Below are positions 45,206 to 51,983 of a stretch of 64,000 nt of DNA, in pieces. A program made the translations under genes and the position numbers. Under the pieces are notes generated by a model. The model did not search any database. It was not told the origin of the DNA and saw only the letters and a list, made by a program, of their open reading frames with translations. Position 1 is the first letter of the stretch. Each line of letters opens with the position of its first letter. The stretch is from Erythrobacter litoralis. Its GTDB lineage: Bacteria > Pseudomonadota > Alphaproteobacteria > Sphingomonadales > Sphingomonadaceae. Where the stretch lies: assembly GCF_001719165.1 (NCBI RefSeq), contig NZ_CP017057.1, positions 2,480,001 through 2,544,000 of the forward strand, written 5' to 3'.

Positions 45206-46486
45206 ATGAATGCTCCCTGGAAAAACGGTCTTCCCGGCAATCGCGATCCGTTCGCGGCCTATATCTGCGACGACACCGCACTCGACGTGCTGCGTCCGGT
45301 CGTGATCGAAATGGGCTGGCAGCCGGAAAAGTGCAACAAGGGCGGATTGCGCAATGCAATCCAGTCGCTTTCGGTCAGCGCTTCGCCGGCGATCCTCTTC
45401 GTCGACCTGTCGGAAAGCGGCGATCCGCTCAATGACATCAACGCGCTCGCCGAAGTGTGCGAGCCGGGCACGGTCGTGATCGCGATCGGCCAGGTCAACG
45501 ACGTGCGGCTCTATCGCGATCTGCTTGCAAGCGGGATTCACGATTACCTGCTCAAGCCGCTTTCGGCGCAGCAAGTGCACGATGCCCTCAACAACGCGCT
45601 GACCGTGTTCACCGCGCCGCGTTCGGGTGACGGCGACACAGTGCGCCGCCACATCTCGACCGCGGTGGTCGGCACGCGCGGCGGCGTCGGCGCCTCGACG
45701 CTGGCGACCTCGCTCGCCTGGCTGTTCTCCGACCATCACAAGGCGCCGACCGCGCTGCTCGACCTCGACGTCCATTTCGGGACCGGCGCGCTTGCACTCG
45801 ATCTCGAACCGGGCCGCGGGCTGACAGACGCGATCGACAATCCCAGCCGCATCGACGGCCTGTTCATCGAACGCGCCATGATCCGGGCGAACGACAACCT
45901 GTCGATCCTGTCGGCCGAAGCTCCGATCAACCAGCCGTTGATGACCGATGGATCGGCCTTCGTGCAGCTGGAGGAGGAGTTCCGCCAGGCCTTCGAGATG
46001 ACGGTCATCGACATGCCGCGCAACATGCTGATCAACTTTCCGCAGCTGCTCGGCGACGTGAACCTCGTACTCGTCACCTGCGAATTGACGCTCGCCTCGG
46101 CGCGCGATGCGATCCGCATCCTGTCGTGGCTCAAGACCAATGCCGCGCACGCGCACCCGATGATCGTCGCGAACAAGGTCCAGCCGGCCGTCGCCGAGAT
46201 CTCCAAGGCGGATTTCGAAGCCTCGATCGAGCGCAAGATCGACTTCGTCATTCCCTACGACATCAAGGCGGCCTCGAACGCGGCCAAGCTGGGGCAGGTG
46301 TTCGTCGATGCGAACCGTTCGAGCAAGGCGACCGCCGCGATCAAGCAGCTCGCCGAACGCGTGATGGGCGCGAGCGAGGACGATCTCGAGAGCATAGCGG
46401 AAGAGAAGAAATCGCTGCTTGGCAGCTTCGACTTCAAGTCACTGCTGGCCAAGAAGGACAAGAGCGAGGCCGAAGCGGCCGAATGA
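45206..46486 (+). CDS. cpaE: Pilus assembly ATPase-like protein CpaE/TadZ
   Basis: A 426-residue protein. An N-terminal receiver-like domain (about 15-135, 'LLASGIHDYLLKPLSAQQ') is followed by a MinD/ParA-type domain. Its nucleotide loop is 'VVGTRGGVGASTLATSLAW', the form typical of CpaE where the usual GKT lysine is replaced. 'LLDLDVHFGTGALALDL' and 'TVIDMPRN' complete the fold. TadZ localises the Tad machine at the pole. The stop is followed by 119 bases before tadB, where cpaF would be expected. Confidence 0.94.
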   Translation: MNAPWKNGLPGNRDPFAAYICDDTALDVLRPVVIEMGWQPEKCNKGGLRNAIQSLSVSASPAILFVDLSESGDPLNDINALAEVCEPGTVVIAIGQVNDVRLYRDLLASGIHDYLLKPLSAQQVHDALNNALTVFTAPRSGDGDTVRRHISTAVVGTRGGVGASTLATSLAWLFSDHHKAPTALLDLDVHFGTGALALDLEPGRGLTDAIDNPSRIDGLFIERAMIRANDNLSILSAEAPINQPLMTDGSAFVQLEEEFRQAFEMTVIDMPRNMLINFPQLLGDVNLVLVTCELTLASARDAIRILSWLKTNAAHAHPMIVANKVQPAVAEISKADFEASIERKIDFVIPYDIKAASNAAKLGQVFVDANRSSKATAAIKQLAERVMGASEDDLESIAEEKKSLLGSFDFKSLLAKKDKSEAEAAE

Positions 46487-46605
46487 CGGGGCGCGCGCGG
46501 GGGCCGGACGGACGGGCCGACAGGCCTGCACCCTCCGCGCCCCCGCAGTGACCGTCACGTGGGACCGCAAGGTCCGGGGAATGAATTGAGGCAGGAGCCA
46601 GAGGC

Positions 46606-47577
46606 ATGAGTTTTTTCGAGACCCTGCTCATTACGGGCGTGATCTTCGGCGTCCTGCTGATCGGCTATCTCCTGCTCGATGGTGCGGGTGTGGGCAAGGC
46701 GCAGAAGCGCCGCGTCCAGGCGCTGCGCTATCGCCACTCCGAAAGCCTCGATGCCAAGGTCGAATCCCAGTTCAAGCGCGCAATCGCGGCACGCAAGCCC
46801 AAGCTCTACCGCAAGGCGGGCGCCGGCTCGAGGCTCGAGGCACTCGAAGGGCGGCTCGACCGGACCGGCAAGGGCTGGAGCCTGTCGCAATATCTCTATT
46901 CCAGTCTCGGCCTGTGGATCGCGGTCGCGGTGATCATCTTTATCCAGAGCGGGGCGTTGCTGCTCTCGCTCGGCGTCGGCCTGCTGGTGGGCGCCGGCAT
47001 CCCGCACATGGTGGTAGGCTTCTTCATCAAGAGGCGCACCAACGCGTTCAACGCCAAGTTCCCCGACGGGATCGAGCTGCTCGTGCGTGGGCTTCGCTCG
47101 GGGCTCCCGGTGACCGAGACGCTCGGCGTGGTCGCGCAGGAAGTGCCCGGCCCGGTGGGCGAGGAATTCAAGGGCATCACCGAACGCATCAAGATCGGCA
47201 AGACGATGGAGGACGCGCTCCAAGACACCGCCGACAGGCTCGATATCCCGGAATTCAACTTCTTCTGCATCACGCTCGCGATCCAGCGCGAAACGGGGGG
47301 CAACCTCGCCGAGACGCTGTCGAACCTTGCCGACGTGCTGCGCAAGCGTGCCCAGATGAAGCTCAAGATCAAGGCGATGAGTTCCGAATCCAAGGCGTCG
47401 GCCTACATCGTCGGTTCGCTTCCCTTCATCGTGTTCGCCATGATCTTCTGGATCAATCCGGAATATATCGGCGGCTTTTTCACCGATGACCGTCTGATCG
47501 TCGCCGGGCTCGGCGGGTTCACGTGGATGGGCATTGGTGCCTTCGTCATGGCCAAGATGGTCAGCTTCGAAATCTAA
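46606..47577 (+). CDS. tadB: Tad pilus inner membrane protein TadB (T2SS GspF family)
   Basis: A 323-residue polytopic protein with a GspF domain: 'PDGIELLVRGLRSGLPVTET' near residue 150, 'DTADRLDIPEFNFFCITLAI' and 'ETGGNLAETLSNLADVLRKR'. Membrane helices lie near the N-terminus, around residues 100-140 and at the C-terminus. It forms the inner membrane platform with TadC and the CpaF motor. A CAGGAG site precedes the ATG. Confidence 0.94.
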   Translation: MSFFETLLITGVIFGVLLIGYLLLDGAGVGKAQKRRVQALRYRHSESLDAKVESQFKRAIAARKPKLYRKAGAGSRLEALEGRLDRTGKGWSLSQYLYSSLGLWIAVAVIIFIQSGALLLSLGVGLLVGAGIPHMVVGFFIKRRTNAFNAKFPDGIELLVRGLRSGLPVTETLGVVAQEVPGPVGEEFKGITERIKIGKTMEDALQDTADRLDIPEFNFFCITLAIQRETGGNLAETLSNLADVLRKRAQMKLKIKAMSSESKASAYIVGSLPFIVFAMIFWINPEYIGGFFTDDRLIVAGLGGFTWMGIGAFVMAKMVSFEI

Positions 47578-47597
47578 TCTATCCGGGAAACAGAACC

Positions 47598-48590
47598 ATG
47601 CTGAACCAACCCCCCGGACCCACCCTGCTCGGCTTCGACGTCGTGCTCGTCGGCTCCATCCTCGCCGGGATCGCGGCGCTCGCCGTGCTCGTCGCGATCT
47701 ACAGCGCGGTGACGATCAAGGACCCGATGGCGAAGCGCGTGAAGGCGCTCAATTCGCGGCGCGAGGAGCTGAAGGCGGGCATCGTCACAAGCAGCGCCAA
47801 GAAGCGCGCCAGCCTCGTTCGGCGGACCGATACGACCGACAAGGTCAAGGACCAGCTCAGCCGGATGAAGGTCCTGCAGCAGAGCCAGGTCGAAGCGGTT
47901 CAGCAGAAGCTCGCCTATGCCGGCTACCGCAACAAGGAACTGGCCGTCCTCATTATCGGCCTGCGCGCGGTGCTGCCGATCGTGTTCGGGTCTGTCGGCT
48001 TGCTCGTGTTCTATTGGGCCAACTATTTCGACAACGGCCCGTTCATGCAGCTCATGGGCTTCGCGGCTACCGTTCTGCTCGGCTACAAGGGCCCGGAACT
48101 TTATCTCAGCAACAAGGCGTCGAAGCGCACGGCAGAAATCCAGAAGGGCCTGCCCGACGCGCTCGACCTGCTCGTCATCTGCGCCGAGGCCGGTTTGACC
48201 GTCGATGCCGCGTTCAACCGCGTGGCGAAGGAACTGGGCCGGGCCTATCCCGAACTCGGCGACGAATTCGCGCTGACCGCGATCGAGCTGTCGTTCCTCA
48301 ACGAACGCAAAACCGCGTTCAACAACCTCGCCTATCGCGTCAATCTCGACGCGGTGAAGGGCGTGGTGACGACCATGATCCAGACAGAGCGTTACGGCAC
48401 CCCGCTCGCTTCCGCGCTGCGCGTGCTCTCAGCCGAATTCCGCAACGAGCGCATGATGCGCGCCGAGGAAAAGGCAGCGCGCCTGCCGGCGATCATGACG
48501 GTGCCGCTGATCCTGTTCATCCTGCCGGTGCTGTTCATCGTCATTCTCGGACCGGCGGCCTGTTCGATCTCGGATGCGCTCATAAAATAG
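47598..48590 (+). CDS. tadC: Tad pilus inner membrane protein TadC (T2SS GspF family)
   Basis: A 330-residue partner of TadB. The GspF part is 'KGLPDALDLLVICAEAGLTV' near residue 180, then 'ELSFLNERKTAFNNLAYRV' and 'YGTPLASALRVLSAEFR', with a last membrane helix 'IMTVPLILFILPVLFIVIL'. The start at 47598 follows a GGGAAACAG stretch. It closes the operon; a 13-bp hairpin terminator follows. Confidence 0.94.
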   Translation: MLNQPPGPTLLGFDVVLVGSILAGIAALAVLVAIYSAVTIKDPMAKRVKALNSRREELKAGIVTSSAKKRASLVRRTDTTDKVKDQLSRMKVLQQSQVEAVQQKLAYAGYRNKELAVLIIGLRAVLPIVFGSVGLLVFYWANYFDNGPFMQLMGFAATVLLGYKGPELYLSNKASKRTAEIQKGLPDALDLLVICAEAGLTVDAAFNRVAKELGRAYPELGDEFALTAIELSFLNERKTAFNNLAYRVNLDAVKGVVTTMIQTERYGTPLASALRVLSAEFRNERMMRAEEKAARLPAIMTVPLILFILPVLFIVILGPAACSISDALIK

Positions 48591-49268: not shown

Positions 49269-50141
49269 TCACTCGTAGGTGCGCTCCTCCCACCAGGGGT
49301 AGAAATCGGGCATGTCCTCGCTGACCCTACCGGGATAGACCGGGCGGCGTTTGTCGAGGAAGCTCGCTATCCCCTCCTTCGCATCGGCCCCGCGCGAAAG
49401 GCGGTAGATCGCGCGGGAATCGATCTTGTGCGCCTCCATCGGATGATCCGCGCTCATCAGCCGCCACATCATCGCCCGCGTCATCGCGACCGAAATGGCC
49501 GAGGTGTTCTCGGCGATCTCGCTTGCGAGGTCCTTCGCCGCAAACATAAGGTCGGCCGGCGCATGGACCGACCGCACCAGACCCCCCGCCTTGGCCTCGG
49601 CGGCATCGAACACCCGGCCCGAATAGCACCATTCGAGCGCTTGCGAGATGCCGACAATGCGCGGCAGGAACCAGCTTGAAGCGGCTTCGGGCACGATCCC
49701 GCGCCTCGCGAAGACGAAGCCGTAGCGAGCGGTCTCGCTTGCTAGGCGAATGTCCATGGCAAGCTGCATCGTCGCGCCGACGCCAACCGCGACCCCGTTG
49801 CAGGCCGAGATCAGCGGCTTTTTCGATTCGAACAGGCGCAGCGTAAGCAGGCCCCCGCCGTCGCGCACGCGGCTGTCGGACAGGTCCTTGACCTCCTCGC
49901 CGCTGGAAAAGACCTGGCCTCCGCCCTCGGGTGTGAGATCGGCACCGGCGCAGAATGCCTTTTCGCCGCTGCCCGTAAAGATCACCGCGCGCACTTTGTC
50001 GTCGGCATCTATATCGTCCATCGCGGCGATGATCTCAGCCCCCATCGTGCCGGTATAGGCGTTCATCTTTTCTGGGCGATCGAGGGTGATGGTGGCGATG
50101 CCGTCGGCCTTTTCGACCGTTATCTGGGTGGGATTGGTCAT
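49269..50141 (-). CDS. Enoyl-CoA hydratase/isomerase family protein (crotonase)
   Basis: A 290-residue crotonase-fold enzyme. The oxyanion-hole strands are 'EKAFCAGADLTPEGGG' (near residue 66) and 'SACNGVAVGVGATMQLAMDI' (near residue 107). 'FARRGIVPEAASSWFLPRIV' supplies the acidic residue of hydratases. The exact acyl-CoA substrate is open. The start ATG at 50141 has GGAG at suitable spacing; a GTG three codons earlier is too close to that site. Confidence 0.93.
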   Translation of the reverse strand: MTNPTQITVEKADGIATITLDRPEKMNAYTGTMGAEIIAAMDDIDADDKVRAVIFTGSGEKAFCAGADLTPEGGGQVFSSGEEVKDLSDSRVRDGGGLLTLRLFESKKPLISACNGVAVGVGATMQLAMDIRLASETARYGFVFARRGIVPEAASSWFLPRIVGISQALEWCYSGRVFDAAEAKAGGLVRSVHAPADLMFAAKDLASEIAENTSAISVAMTRAMMWRLMSADHPMEAHKIDSRAIYRLSRGADAKEGIASFLDKRRPVYPGRVSEDMPDFYPWWEERTYE

Positions 50142-50236
50142 GGGTTGCACTCTCCTTCGGCGGTCACGATGGCACGGCTTTCGGCAAAGAAAAACCTGTC
50201 AGATTGGCCGGGGATGAAGAGCGGGTGAATATCGAT

Positions 50237-50249
50237 CCCAAAGTTTGGG
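50237..50249 (+). promoter_or_regulatory. Palindrome CCCAAAGTTTGGG, candidate enhancer site
   Basis: A perfect 6+1+6 inverted repeat lies about 87-100 bp upstream of the -24 element of the sigma-54 promoter at 50336. That is the usual distance for a bacterial enhancer-binding protein site. Part of it (AAGTTTGG) recurs directly at the promoter (50332-50338). Confidence 0.45.
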
Positions 50250-50335
50250 AAATTTTGCCGATCTTGCGCAAAGAGCCTTGGCCAGCACCTGCTGGTGAAC
50301 CGCCGAAAGTCAGGATTTCCGCCATTTCGCAAGTT

Positions 50336-50351
50336 TGGCACGGGCTGTGCA
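50336..50351 (+). promoter_or_regulatory. Sigma-54 (RpoN) promoter for the twin micropeptide genes
   Basis: The sequence TGGCACG-GGCT-GTGCA has the -24 GG and -12 GC exactly 10 bases apart and differs from the consensus TGGCACG-N4-TTGCA at one position. Transcription would start near 50362, giving a leader of about 55 bases with an AAGGAG site before the first peptide's ATG. The match is close and the position is intergenic, so it is unlikely to be chance. Confidence 0.75.
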
Positions 50352-50416
50352 GAGTCTTGGGCATGAAGCGGAACGACTTCCGCACCGAACCGAACCAAAG
50401 CCAAGGAGACCGACCC

Positions 50417-50530
50417 ATGTTGAACACCGATACCAGCCGCAACCTCTTCGCCGCCGCCATCTCGCTGGGCGTGAGCGCCATCCTCTTCGCCTATGCGATC
50501 ATCCCCGCCAGCCCTTCGCTGGTCGCCTGA
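50417..50530 (+). CDS. Hydrophobic micropeptide 1 (37 residues)
   Basis: A 37-residue peptide that I do not recognise. A polar start 'MLNTDTSRN' leads into one membrane-length helix (about residues 10-29, 'LFAAAISLGVSAILFAYAII') and a short tail 'PASPSLVA'. An AAGGAG site sits 8 bases before the ATG. It is 20/32 identical over an ungapped alignment with the next peptide, so the two are a tandem duplication. A single helix with a Pro-rich end would suit a small regulator or subunit in the inner membrane. It lies downstream of a sigma-54 promoter. Confidence 0.75.
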   Translation: MLNTDTSRNLFAAAISLGVSAILFAYAIIPASPSLVA

Positions 50531-50562
50531 TCCGCCGGGCCATTCACCAAAGGAATACCGCA

Positions 50563-50673
50563 ATGTTCGCCGTCACCAGCCAGACCCTGCTCGCCGCCGC
50601 CGTCTCGATCACGCTTTGTGCGATCCTGTTCGCTTATGCGATCGTCCCGGCCACACCGAATCTCGTCATCTGA
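50563..50673 (+). CDS. Hydrophobic micropeptide 2 (36 residues), paralogue of micropeptide 1
   Basis: A 36-residue peptide with a helix at about residues 8-27 ('TLLAAAVSITLCAILFAYAI') and the tail 'PATPNLVI'. It shares the block 'AILFAYAI' and the pattern PAxPxLV with its neighbour. An AAAGGA site precedes the ATG, and 32 bases separate the two frames. It has a single cysteine in the helix that the first copy lacks. It is followed by two hairpins, the second a clear terminator. The function is unknown. Confidence 0.75.
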   Translation: MFAVTSQTLLAAAVSITLCAILFAYAIVPATPNLVI

Positions 50674-50688
50674 TCCCCCGTCCCCCGC

Positions 50689-50726
50689 GCGGGACCCACC
50701 AGTCCCCCACCCCCACCGGGTCCCGC
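50689..50726 (+). other. Hairpin after the micropeptide genes
   Basis: A perfect 9-bp inverted repeat (GCGGGACCC with GGGTCCCGC) with a 20-base C-rich loop, 15 bases after the second stop. It has no T run and may stabilise the short transcript's 3' end. Confidence 0.5.
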
Positions 50727-50731
50727 AACCG

Positions 50732-50760
50732 AACCCCCGCCGCATCCCGGCGGGGGTTTT
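50732..50760 (+). terminator. Rho-independent terminator of the micropeptide unit
   Basis: A perfect 11-bp stem (AACCCCCGCCG with CGGCGGGGGTT), a 5-base loop and a run of four T. It closes a transcript of about 400 bases that starts at the sigma-54 promoter. Confidence 0.88.
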
Positions 50761-50828
50761 CGCTTGGCCCAGGGACTGCCGCCCGCGCCCACTCGGTGAC
50801 ATCGCGTCATCGCAACGGCGCCGACCGC

Positions 50829-51983
50829 TTACCGGGCAAGCCCGCGCTCGCGCCCGCGGCGATAGAGCCTGTTCATGAAGTCCTGGTCAAACAGGTCCTG
50901 ATCGCCTTGCTCGGCCTCGGGCCCGATGCTCTCGATATCGAGCACCAGCCCGGCCTCCTGCGCGTATTGCTTGAGGATCAGGATCTCGCCTTGGTCGGCC
51001 TGCTTGATCGCAGTGAACAGGGCGCGCTCCATGATCGAGAAGGCATCGGGCTTCACCACTTTGTGGACCGCGCCGAGCGCGCCGTTGTAAAGGACGGTAA
51101 GACGCGCATCGACCTTGGTCCCGTTGGCCTGGTCCTCGAACGCGACGGCCGGGGGGATGACGAGGATACTCGAAACCACTCCGCCATCGACATGCAGCTC
51201 GCTGAAGCGCTGCTGCCCGCTGGTGACGTCGATCAGGACCGGAGGGAAGAATCCCGGAATGCTGGCCGAAGCGAGCAGCACCTTGCGAAACAGGGCATAG
51301 CGTTCGGCGCTGTCGCTCGAAGCGATGGCTCCCATGTCCCATACCACGCCGCGCTGCGCGTCGAGATTGGCGGTCATCACCAGCAACCTGCGTCCGCCCG
51401 CATGCTCCTGCGCGACCCGGTCGATCACGGAAGTATCGGCATAGCGCTCGATCAGTTCGGCGAGCGGTTCGGTAGTCGCCAGCGCAGGCCCGCCCAGAAG
51501 ACCTTGGACGGAGCGCATGCGGTAGATCATGCGCGCATTGATCCCGGTATAGAGCTCTTCGAGACGGCTATCGTACTCCTCGCCGAGGAAGGCGAAGGGC
51601 GCAATCAGTGCGCCGGTGCTCACGCCCGAGACGATGTCGAATTCGGGCCGGGTTCCAGCTTCGCTCCACCCGCCGAGATAGCCTGCGGTGAAAGCGCCCT
51701 TGTCGGCGCCCGAGGAAATGGCGAGCATTTCGAGCCGCCCGGTGCTCCCGGTCTGCGCCCGCTGCGCTGCGGCCCGTGCGCGCCAGCCGTTCCAGGCGCT
51801 GGCTCTGCCGTCTTGCCAGAGCCGGGCGTTTTCGAACCCTGGGACGACGGCGCCGACCTGCGCGTCTGCGGAGACCTGCGGACGTTCGGGCAGCGCGCCG
51901 CAGGCCGACAGGGCCGCGGCGGCCACGACGCCCAACACCGTCCTTGCGAGGTGTGCGATCATGGCCTGCCCGCGATTGCGCAT
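50829..51983 (-). CDS. Patatin-like phospholipase, lipoprotein
   Basis: A 384-residue exported acyl hydrolase. The signal peptide ends in a lipobox 'LSACGA' near residues 25-30. The patatin dyad is Ser in 'VSGVSTGALIAPFAF' (GxSxG) and Asp in 'LHVDGGVVSS'. The oxyanion loop is 'AISSGADKGAFTAGYL'. It probably hydrolyses lipids at the outer membrane or in the periplasm. It stands between the micropeptide unit and the SDR/thiolase pair. Confidence 0.9.
   Translation of the reverse strand: MRNRGQAMIAHLARTVLGVVAAAALSACGALPERPQVSADAQVGAVVPGFENARLWQDGRASAWNGWRARAAAQRAQTGSTGRLEMLAISSGADKGAFTAGYLGGWSEAGTRPEFDIVSGVSTGALIAPFAFLGEEYDSRLEELYTGINARMIYRMRSVQGLLGGPALATTEPLAELIERYADTSVIDRVAQEHAGGRRLLVMTANLDAQRGVVWDMGAIASSDSAERYALFRKVLLASASIPGFFPPVLIDVTSGQQRFSELHVDGGVVSSILVIPPAVAFEDQANGTKVDARLTVLYNGALGAVHKVVKPDAFSIMERALFTAIKQADQGEILILKQYAQEAGLVLDIESIGPEAEQGDQDLFDQDFMNRLYRRGRERGLAR

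Follow-up and report, generated by a model that had tools for sequence, protein, structure and literature searches.

Twin single-helix micropeptides behind a sigma-54 promoter in Erythrobacter litoralis: a probable satellite unit of the PspF regulon

Freed PspF activates sigma-54 promoters. In E. coli, membrane damage is described as shifting PspA and releasing PspF (PMC9239133). PspG is the small inner-membrane product of an orphan PspF target that stands away from pspA; in PMC2763126 it is predicted to have two helices and is called an effector of the Psp response. PspB and PspC are also small inner-membrane proteins. The YohP-type proteins of E. coli are described as small, stress-linked membrane proteins, typically shorter than 50 aa (PMC12719787).

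The window analysed here is a stretch of 64,000 nucleotides from Erythrobacter litoralis (NZ_CP017057.1, positions 2,480,001 to 2,544,000). It holds a small complete transcription unit, in which a sigma-54 promoter precedes two frames for single-helix peptides, each with its ribosome site, and a terminator closes the unit. The unit is flanked on one side by an enoyl-CoA hydratase gene on the opposite strand (49269-50150) and on the other by a convergent patatin-like gene (50829-51983), both names being read from translations. Its features, in window positions, are the following:

50238-50248, + strand: upstream enhancer site 1, CCAAAGTTTGG, 97 bases before TTGGCA (profile p 0.002 here)
50258-50268, + strand: possible second enhancer site, degenerate CCGATCTTGCG, 77 bases before TTGGCA; a poor match, tentative
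50306-50333, + strand: promoter-proximal element AAAGTCAGGATTTCCGCCATTTCGCAAG; the window copy is partial
50334-50351, + strand: sigma-54 promoter TTTGGCACGGGCTGTGCA, with -24 TGGCACG and -12 GTGCA; start predicted near 50362
50368-50383, + strand: hairpin GCGGAA-CGAC-TTCCGC near the 5' end of the transcript, from folding
50417-50530, + strand, ATG to stop: micropeptide 1, 37 aa, one predicted membrane helix; ribosome site AAGGAG at 50403-50408
50563-50673, + strand, ATG to stop: micropeptide 2, 36 aa, paralogue of micropeptide 1; ribosome site AAGGAA at 50550-50555
50731-50760, + strand: intrinsic terminator; hairpin at 50731-50759, stem of 12 bp, short run of T

The initial annotation had described two frames of 37 and 36 aa, each with a ribosome site, between a sigma-54 promoter with GG and GC ten bases apart and a downstream terminator, and all of these could be read directly at the positions above. 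The fold of the terminator stretch (50672-50775) is better than that of 200/200 shuffles (z -3.2). A simple terminator scan finds one site in the region and is by itself weakly informative, because shuffles give 0.8 sites on average. An Rfam match to the rnk leader that sits on the terminator (22.2 bits, gathering threshold 50) was discarded.

By hand count the two peptides are identical at 20 of 32 residues, the figure first given for them, and a search returned 65% identity over 31 residues. Averaged over 19 residues, their hydropathy peaks at 2.26 and 2.45. AlphaFold2, with an alignment of 18 sequences, models one helix (residues 4-28, mean pLDDT 82.8) followed by a loose PASPSLVA tail, which agrees with the single membrane helix per peptide proposed from the letters. 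The PAxPxLV tail proposed with it holds in the window (PASPSLVA), while across relatives the motif is P-A-[ST]-P; A17, A29, P34 and P37 are invariant in 30 chosen sequences. The charges within the first ten residues of 90 peptides drawn from related loci are balanced (71 K/R vs 68 D/E), and the side of the membrane on which the tail lies is therefore only predicted. Neither peptide has a family match in Pfam or NCBIfam at E<=1, and Pfam gave nothing for two longer relatives. The literature, searched mostly among papers open without subscription, held no report that deals with these peptides or with sphingomonad targets of PspF, in keeping with the earlier statement that no such family is described. 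In the accessible text of PMC11237479, PspG and micropeptide do not occur; for Qipengyuania, the accessible part of PMC9241875 notes Psp genes and nothing more.

By analogy, PspG is the nearest parallel to the micropeptides. Like pspG, the window locus is a separate sigma-54/PspF-type unit, located away from pspA, with small predicted inner-membrane products. However, these are 36-37 aa long, have one helix, occur in tandem and match no PspG model (Pfam and NCBIfam, E<=1). They resemble PspB and PspC as small, probably inner-membrane proteins of what is probably the same regulon, and a PspC-domain protein follows a sister array, but they match no PspB or PspC model in Pfam or NCBIfam. YohP is likened to them by description only, and nothing here ties YohP to PspF.

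The genome encodes rpoN, and six of its proteins match the sigma-54 activator family strongly. The PspF candidate (contig C1, 1020016-1021065) scores 480.1 bits against TIGR02974 (cut-off 443.55) and falls below the stricter E. coli-type model NF008622 (393.4 vs 529). Its gene is divergent from a unit of a leader peptide, pspA, pspB and pspC. The PspA, PspB and PspC products pass the NCBIfam cut-offs of the TIGR models, PspA lying below the stricter E. coli-type model NF007974, and the leader peptide has no match in Pfam or NCBIfam. A hydrophobic frame of 52-70 aa lies between promoter and pspA in 30/30 genus pspA units (L150-L179; the script did not locate pspA itself in one, L159), and many of these leader peptides have KLGxAA/SxAS and an -E[IMLV]A end, a motif found by eye. 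Of the 61 genus genomes, 55 have a PspF match at E<=2e-189; in the remaining six, four of which are <80% complete, only a fragment or other activators were found. PspF is present in every one of the 65 peptide-positive genomes in the family sample described below, which is weak evidence because 279 of the 298 genomes have it.

A strict sigma-54 pattern finds 5 sites in the 3.25-Mb genome and 0 in the reversed control. Combined with an enhancer site (CCAANNNWTGG-N60-90-TTGGCAY-N6-TGC), it matches the window at 50238-50350 (C1:2530238-2530350) and gives 101 matches in the 61 genus genomes, 57 of which have a match, against 0 in the reversed control. Fifty-four matches lie at pspA, abutting pspF, and 44 at micropeptide arrays (26 known from the peptide search and 18 found on fetching), so that 98/101 are pspA or micropeptide units. 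The last three comprise one at a contig end, one that is probably chance and one outside the sequences fetched. Because the matches fall at pspA and at the arrays, we read the window unit as a satellite of the PspF regulon. Its micropeptides most likely belong to the Psp membrane complex as accessory parts or effectors (rough probability 0.75 for this reading as a whole).

The 42 distinct array promoters and 30 pspF-divergent pspA promoters examined share regulatory DNA. Their majority sequences are nearly identical 5' of the -24 element, with CCGCGGA(A/T)TTCCGCCATTTT in common, and directly 5' of -24 both kinds have a palindrome-like proximal element, CCGCGGAATTCCGCC. The site CCAANNNTTGG starts 77 bases before TTGGCA in 30/30 pspA promoters, the same position as 50258-50268 in the window. 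In array promoters it starts at 96-98 in 24/42 and only at 77 in 1/42; the strict enhancer pattern was not found in 17/42. A profile of the array site region reaches p<=0.005 in 30/30 pspA promoters (200 shuffles each), its best position being -99 in 24 and -79 in six. Since the array profile scores the pspA promoters at these two positions, paired sites spaced by about two turns of the helix seem to be present in both kinds of promoter. The enhancer sites, their spacing and the proximal element, all common to the arrays and the pspA promoter, support the control by an enhancer-binding protein that the initial annotation had foreseen, and on this likeness the protein is very probably PspF. It is very unlikely that another of the six strong activators drives the unit instead, as one match of the combined pattern at a glnK-amtB type unit (L307, below) might suggest: the pspF-pspA intergenic promoter has the same enhancer site and spacing in 30/30, and the array profile gives p 0.34 and 0.046 on two other sigma-54 promoters of the genome vs 0.002 at pspA and both arrays.

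The 5' ends of the transcripts were folded and compared with shuffles. A hairpin from about +6 has z<-1 in 35/42 arrays (7/42 in an upstream control stretch), as against 3/30 in pspA transcripts (control 5/30). Our guess is that it stabilises the array transcripts.

Relatives were sought in Sphingomonadales, as had been suggested. A single-sequence search at E<=1 matched 37 of 61 genomes, including 34/37 of the genus and 3/24 elsewhere in the order, the latter all only at E 0.4-0.6. A profile of 30 peptides (E<=0.001) matched 65 of 298 family-sample genomes and 23 of 96 genera, and a protein search at E<=0.1 brought up 1508 sequences. Scripted extraction from 51 loci yielded 43 promoter-array units with 42 distinct promoters. 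Nine of the 51 gave no unit under the script rules, and four of these (L032, L049, L050 and L054) do show a promoter. The 90 peptides came from the same script; 88 of them are distinct, and a 30-aa one (L013) is a fragment of PspC. Over 24 pairs of genes for 37-aa peptides, picked by DNA identity and with no sequence in more than one pair, pN/pS is 0.31 (bootstrap 0.25-0.39) and differences on codon positions 1/2/3 number 116/74/267. The ratio is 0.38 over all 467 pairs and 0.28 when pairs are picked by protein identity, some pairs joining paralogues. By this measure the micropeptide frames evolve as coding sequence, as had been claimed, and the equal frequency of synonymous and non-synonymous changes that had been set against real frames is not seen.

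A second array is present in the same genome (C1:1102601-1103031), where three related peptides lie behind TTTGGCATAGCTCCTGCA, beside recF (named from translation), and are followed by a 69-aa PspC-domain protein. This small PspC matches PF04024 with 65.2 bits (cut-off 25) and scores under the TIGR02978 cut-off. Of 122 loci, 80 named ones were kept, spanning Erythrobacter, Porphyrobacter, Qipengyuania, Alteriqipengyuania, Citromicrobium, Pontixanthobacter and Altererythrobacter, among others. Fifty-six hold units linked to recF and pspC, two have units that adjoin an enoyl-CoA hydratase gene as in the window, 18 have units elsewhere without pspC, one has a unit elsewhere with pspC, and three gave no promoter. 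Judged by this distribution, the window unit seems to be a copy, without pspC, of the micropeptide-pspC unit that is widespread beside recF; of the two, the recF-pspC form is likely the older. The absence of pspC from the window, together with a 5' hairpin that marks arrays and not pspA transcripts, would also suit frames that serve mainly as leader or translation-coupling elements for a downstream pspC, with the window unit as a decaying copy. We give this little credence in view of the protein-level constraint (pN/pS 0.31), the four invariant residues and the 18 units that stand elsewhere without pspC. Among the best 120 of the 1508 relatives, at least 16 are named enoyl-CoA hydratase by NCBI (P0005, P0016, P0019, P0050, P0119 and others). 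Public records thus misname such peptides; the name is evidently wrong, because a 37-aa helix cannot suit it, and it may have spread from the neighbour gene.

If the micropeptides are parts of the Psp complex, inner-membrane stress would free PspF from PspA, as in E. coli, and PspF would bind the paired upstream sites and drive sigma-54 RNA polymerase at 50334-50351. The transcript, with its stable 5' hairpin, would yield the two paralogous micropeptides, each predicted to cross the inner membrane as a single helix, with the conserved A-[YT]-A-I-[IV]-P-A-[ST]-P tail probably outside. There, probably together with PspC, they would most likely serve the Psp membrane complex as small accessory parts or effectors, and PspF activation would raise PspA, PspB and PspC along with them. 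The linkage of sister units to pspC suggests a place in or beside the PspC complex. The earlier idea that an envelope complex is tuned by the peptides is likewise made plausible by the pspC that adjoins the sister array. As short, hydrophobic single-helix peptides that occur in tandem behind a stress-type promoter, they could also bring to mind stress-induced, membrane-depolarising toxins, TisB-like or otherwise of type I, that slow the cell and are not Psp parts. We consider toxins unlikely, since sister units also encode PspC and a different hydrophobic peptide opens the pspA units. Nor is there a sign of an antisense antitoxin, as no sigma-70-like promoter was found on either strand of 50100-50900 and no Rfam match at threshold, both being weak tests for an unfamiliar RNA.

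In the wider family sample, the combined pattern occurs in 130 of 298 genomes, with at least one control match among the matches listed. Twenty places were chosen mostly by gap length and not at random. Ten of them, second units in nine genomes of other sphingomonad genera, lead a single hydrophobic peptide (36-48 aa); pspC is nearby in 9/10, and none of the nine genomes was matched by the peptide profile. Six are pspA promoters with a hydrophobic peptide of 45-60 aa before pspA, two are arrays of the known kind and two are other. Alignment of the window-family peptides by hhalign gave a probability of 48% (E 1.9e-4) with the peptides of other genera and 2% (E 0.02) with the pspA leader peptides; peptides of other genera and pspA leaders gave 20% (E 1.1e-3). 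Kinship of the family with the other-genera peptides is weakly supported by these scores. Because kinship is weak or not demonstrated, the peptide classes are grouped by place and regulation.

We tentatively propose, at somewhat less than even odds, that PspF-driven transcripts of sphingomonads open as a rule with a single-helix micropeptide, and that these peptides are Psp membrane subunits of a class not yet listed. One kind would stand before pspA and another, in 1-3 copies, before a detached second pspC; copies that lack pspC, the window unit among them, would raise the dose. An exception to the micropeptide-first rule is L306 (G209:C1:2814164), in which the pattern leads a PspC-like gene alone, possibly a PspF unit without micropeptide. 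In L307 (G314:C42:6330-6442) it leads the glnK-amtB type unit, probably a unit of another activator, and the pattern is therefore not perfectly specific.

The twin peptides look like overlooked parts of the well-known phage shock (membrane stress) protection. A conserved micropeptide family under the apparent pspA switch offers new Psp parts that can be tested directly in harmless marine bacteria, and the arrays tie a detached PspC protein to the Psp response.

Some further small proteins were observed. In several arrays the third peptide is longer, about 48 aa (MYSFFD...VPASP...LA), and often overlaps the pspC start (e.g. L035 8915-9061). In the psp operon of this genome, about six small tandem proteins are encoded 3' of pspC (C1 about 1016007-1017873, minus strand; L310 2508-4374). 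Each appears to have a single membrane stretch, and they have a coiled segment of LERI type in common. A weak PspB match (20.0 bits, cut-off 51.7) was obtained for the first, and nothing relevant for most of the rest. Elsewhere in the window, 45206-48590 may be part of a Tad pilus cluster, with a CpaE-like ATPase and two TadB/TadC-like membrane proteins read from translations.
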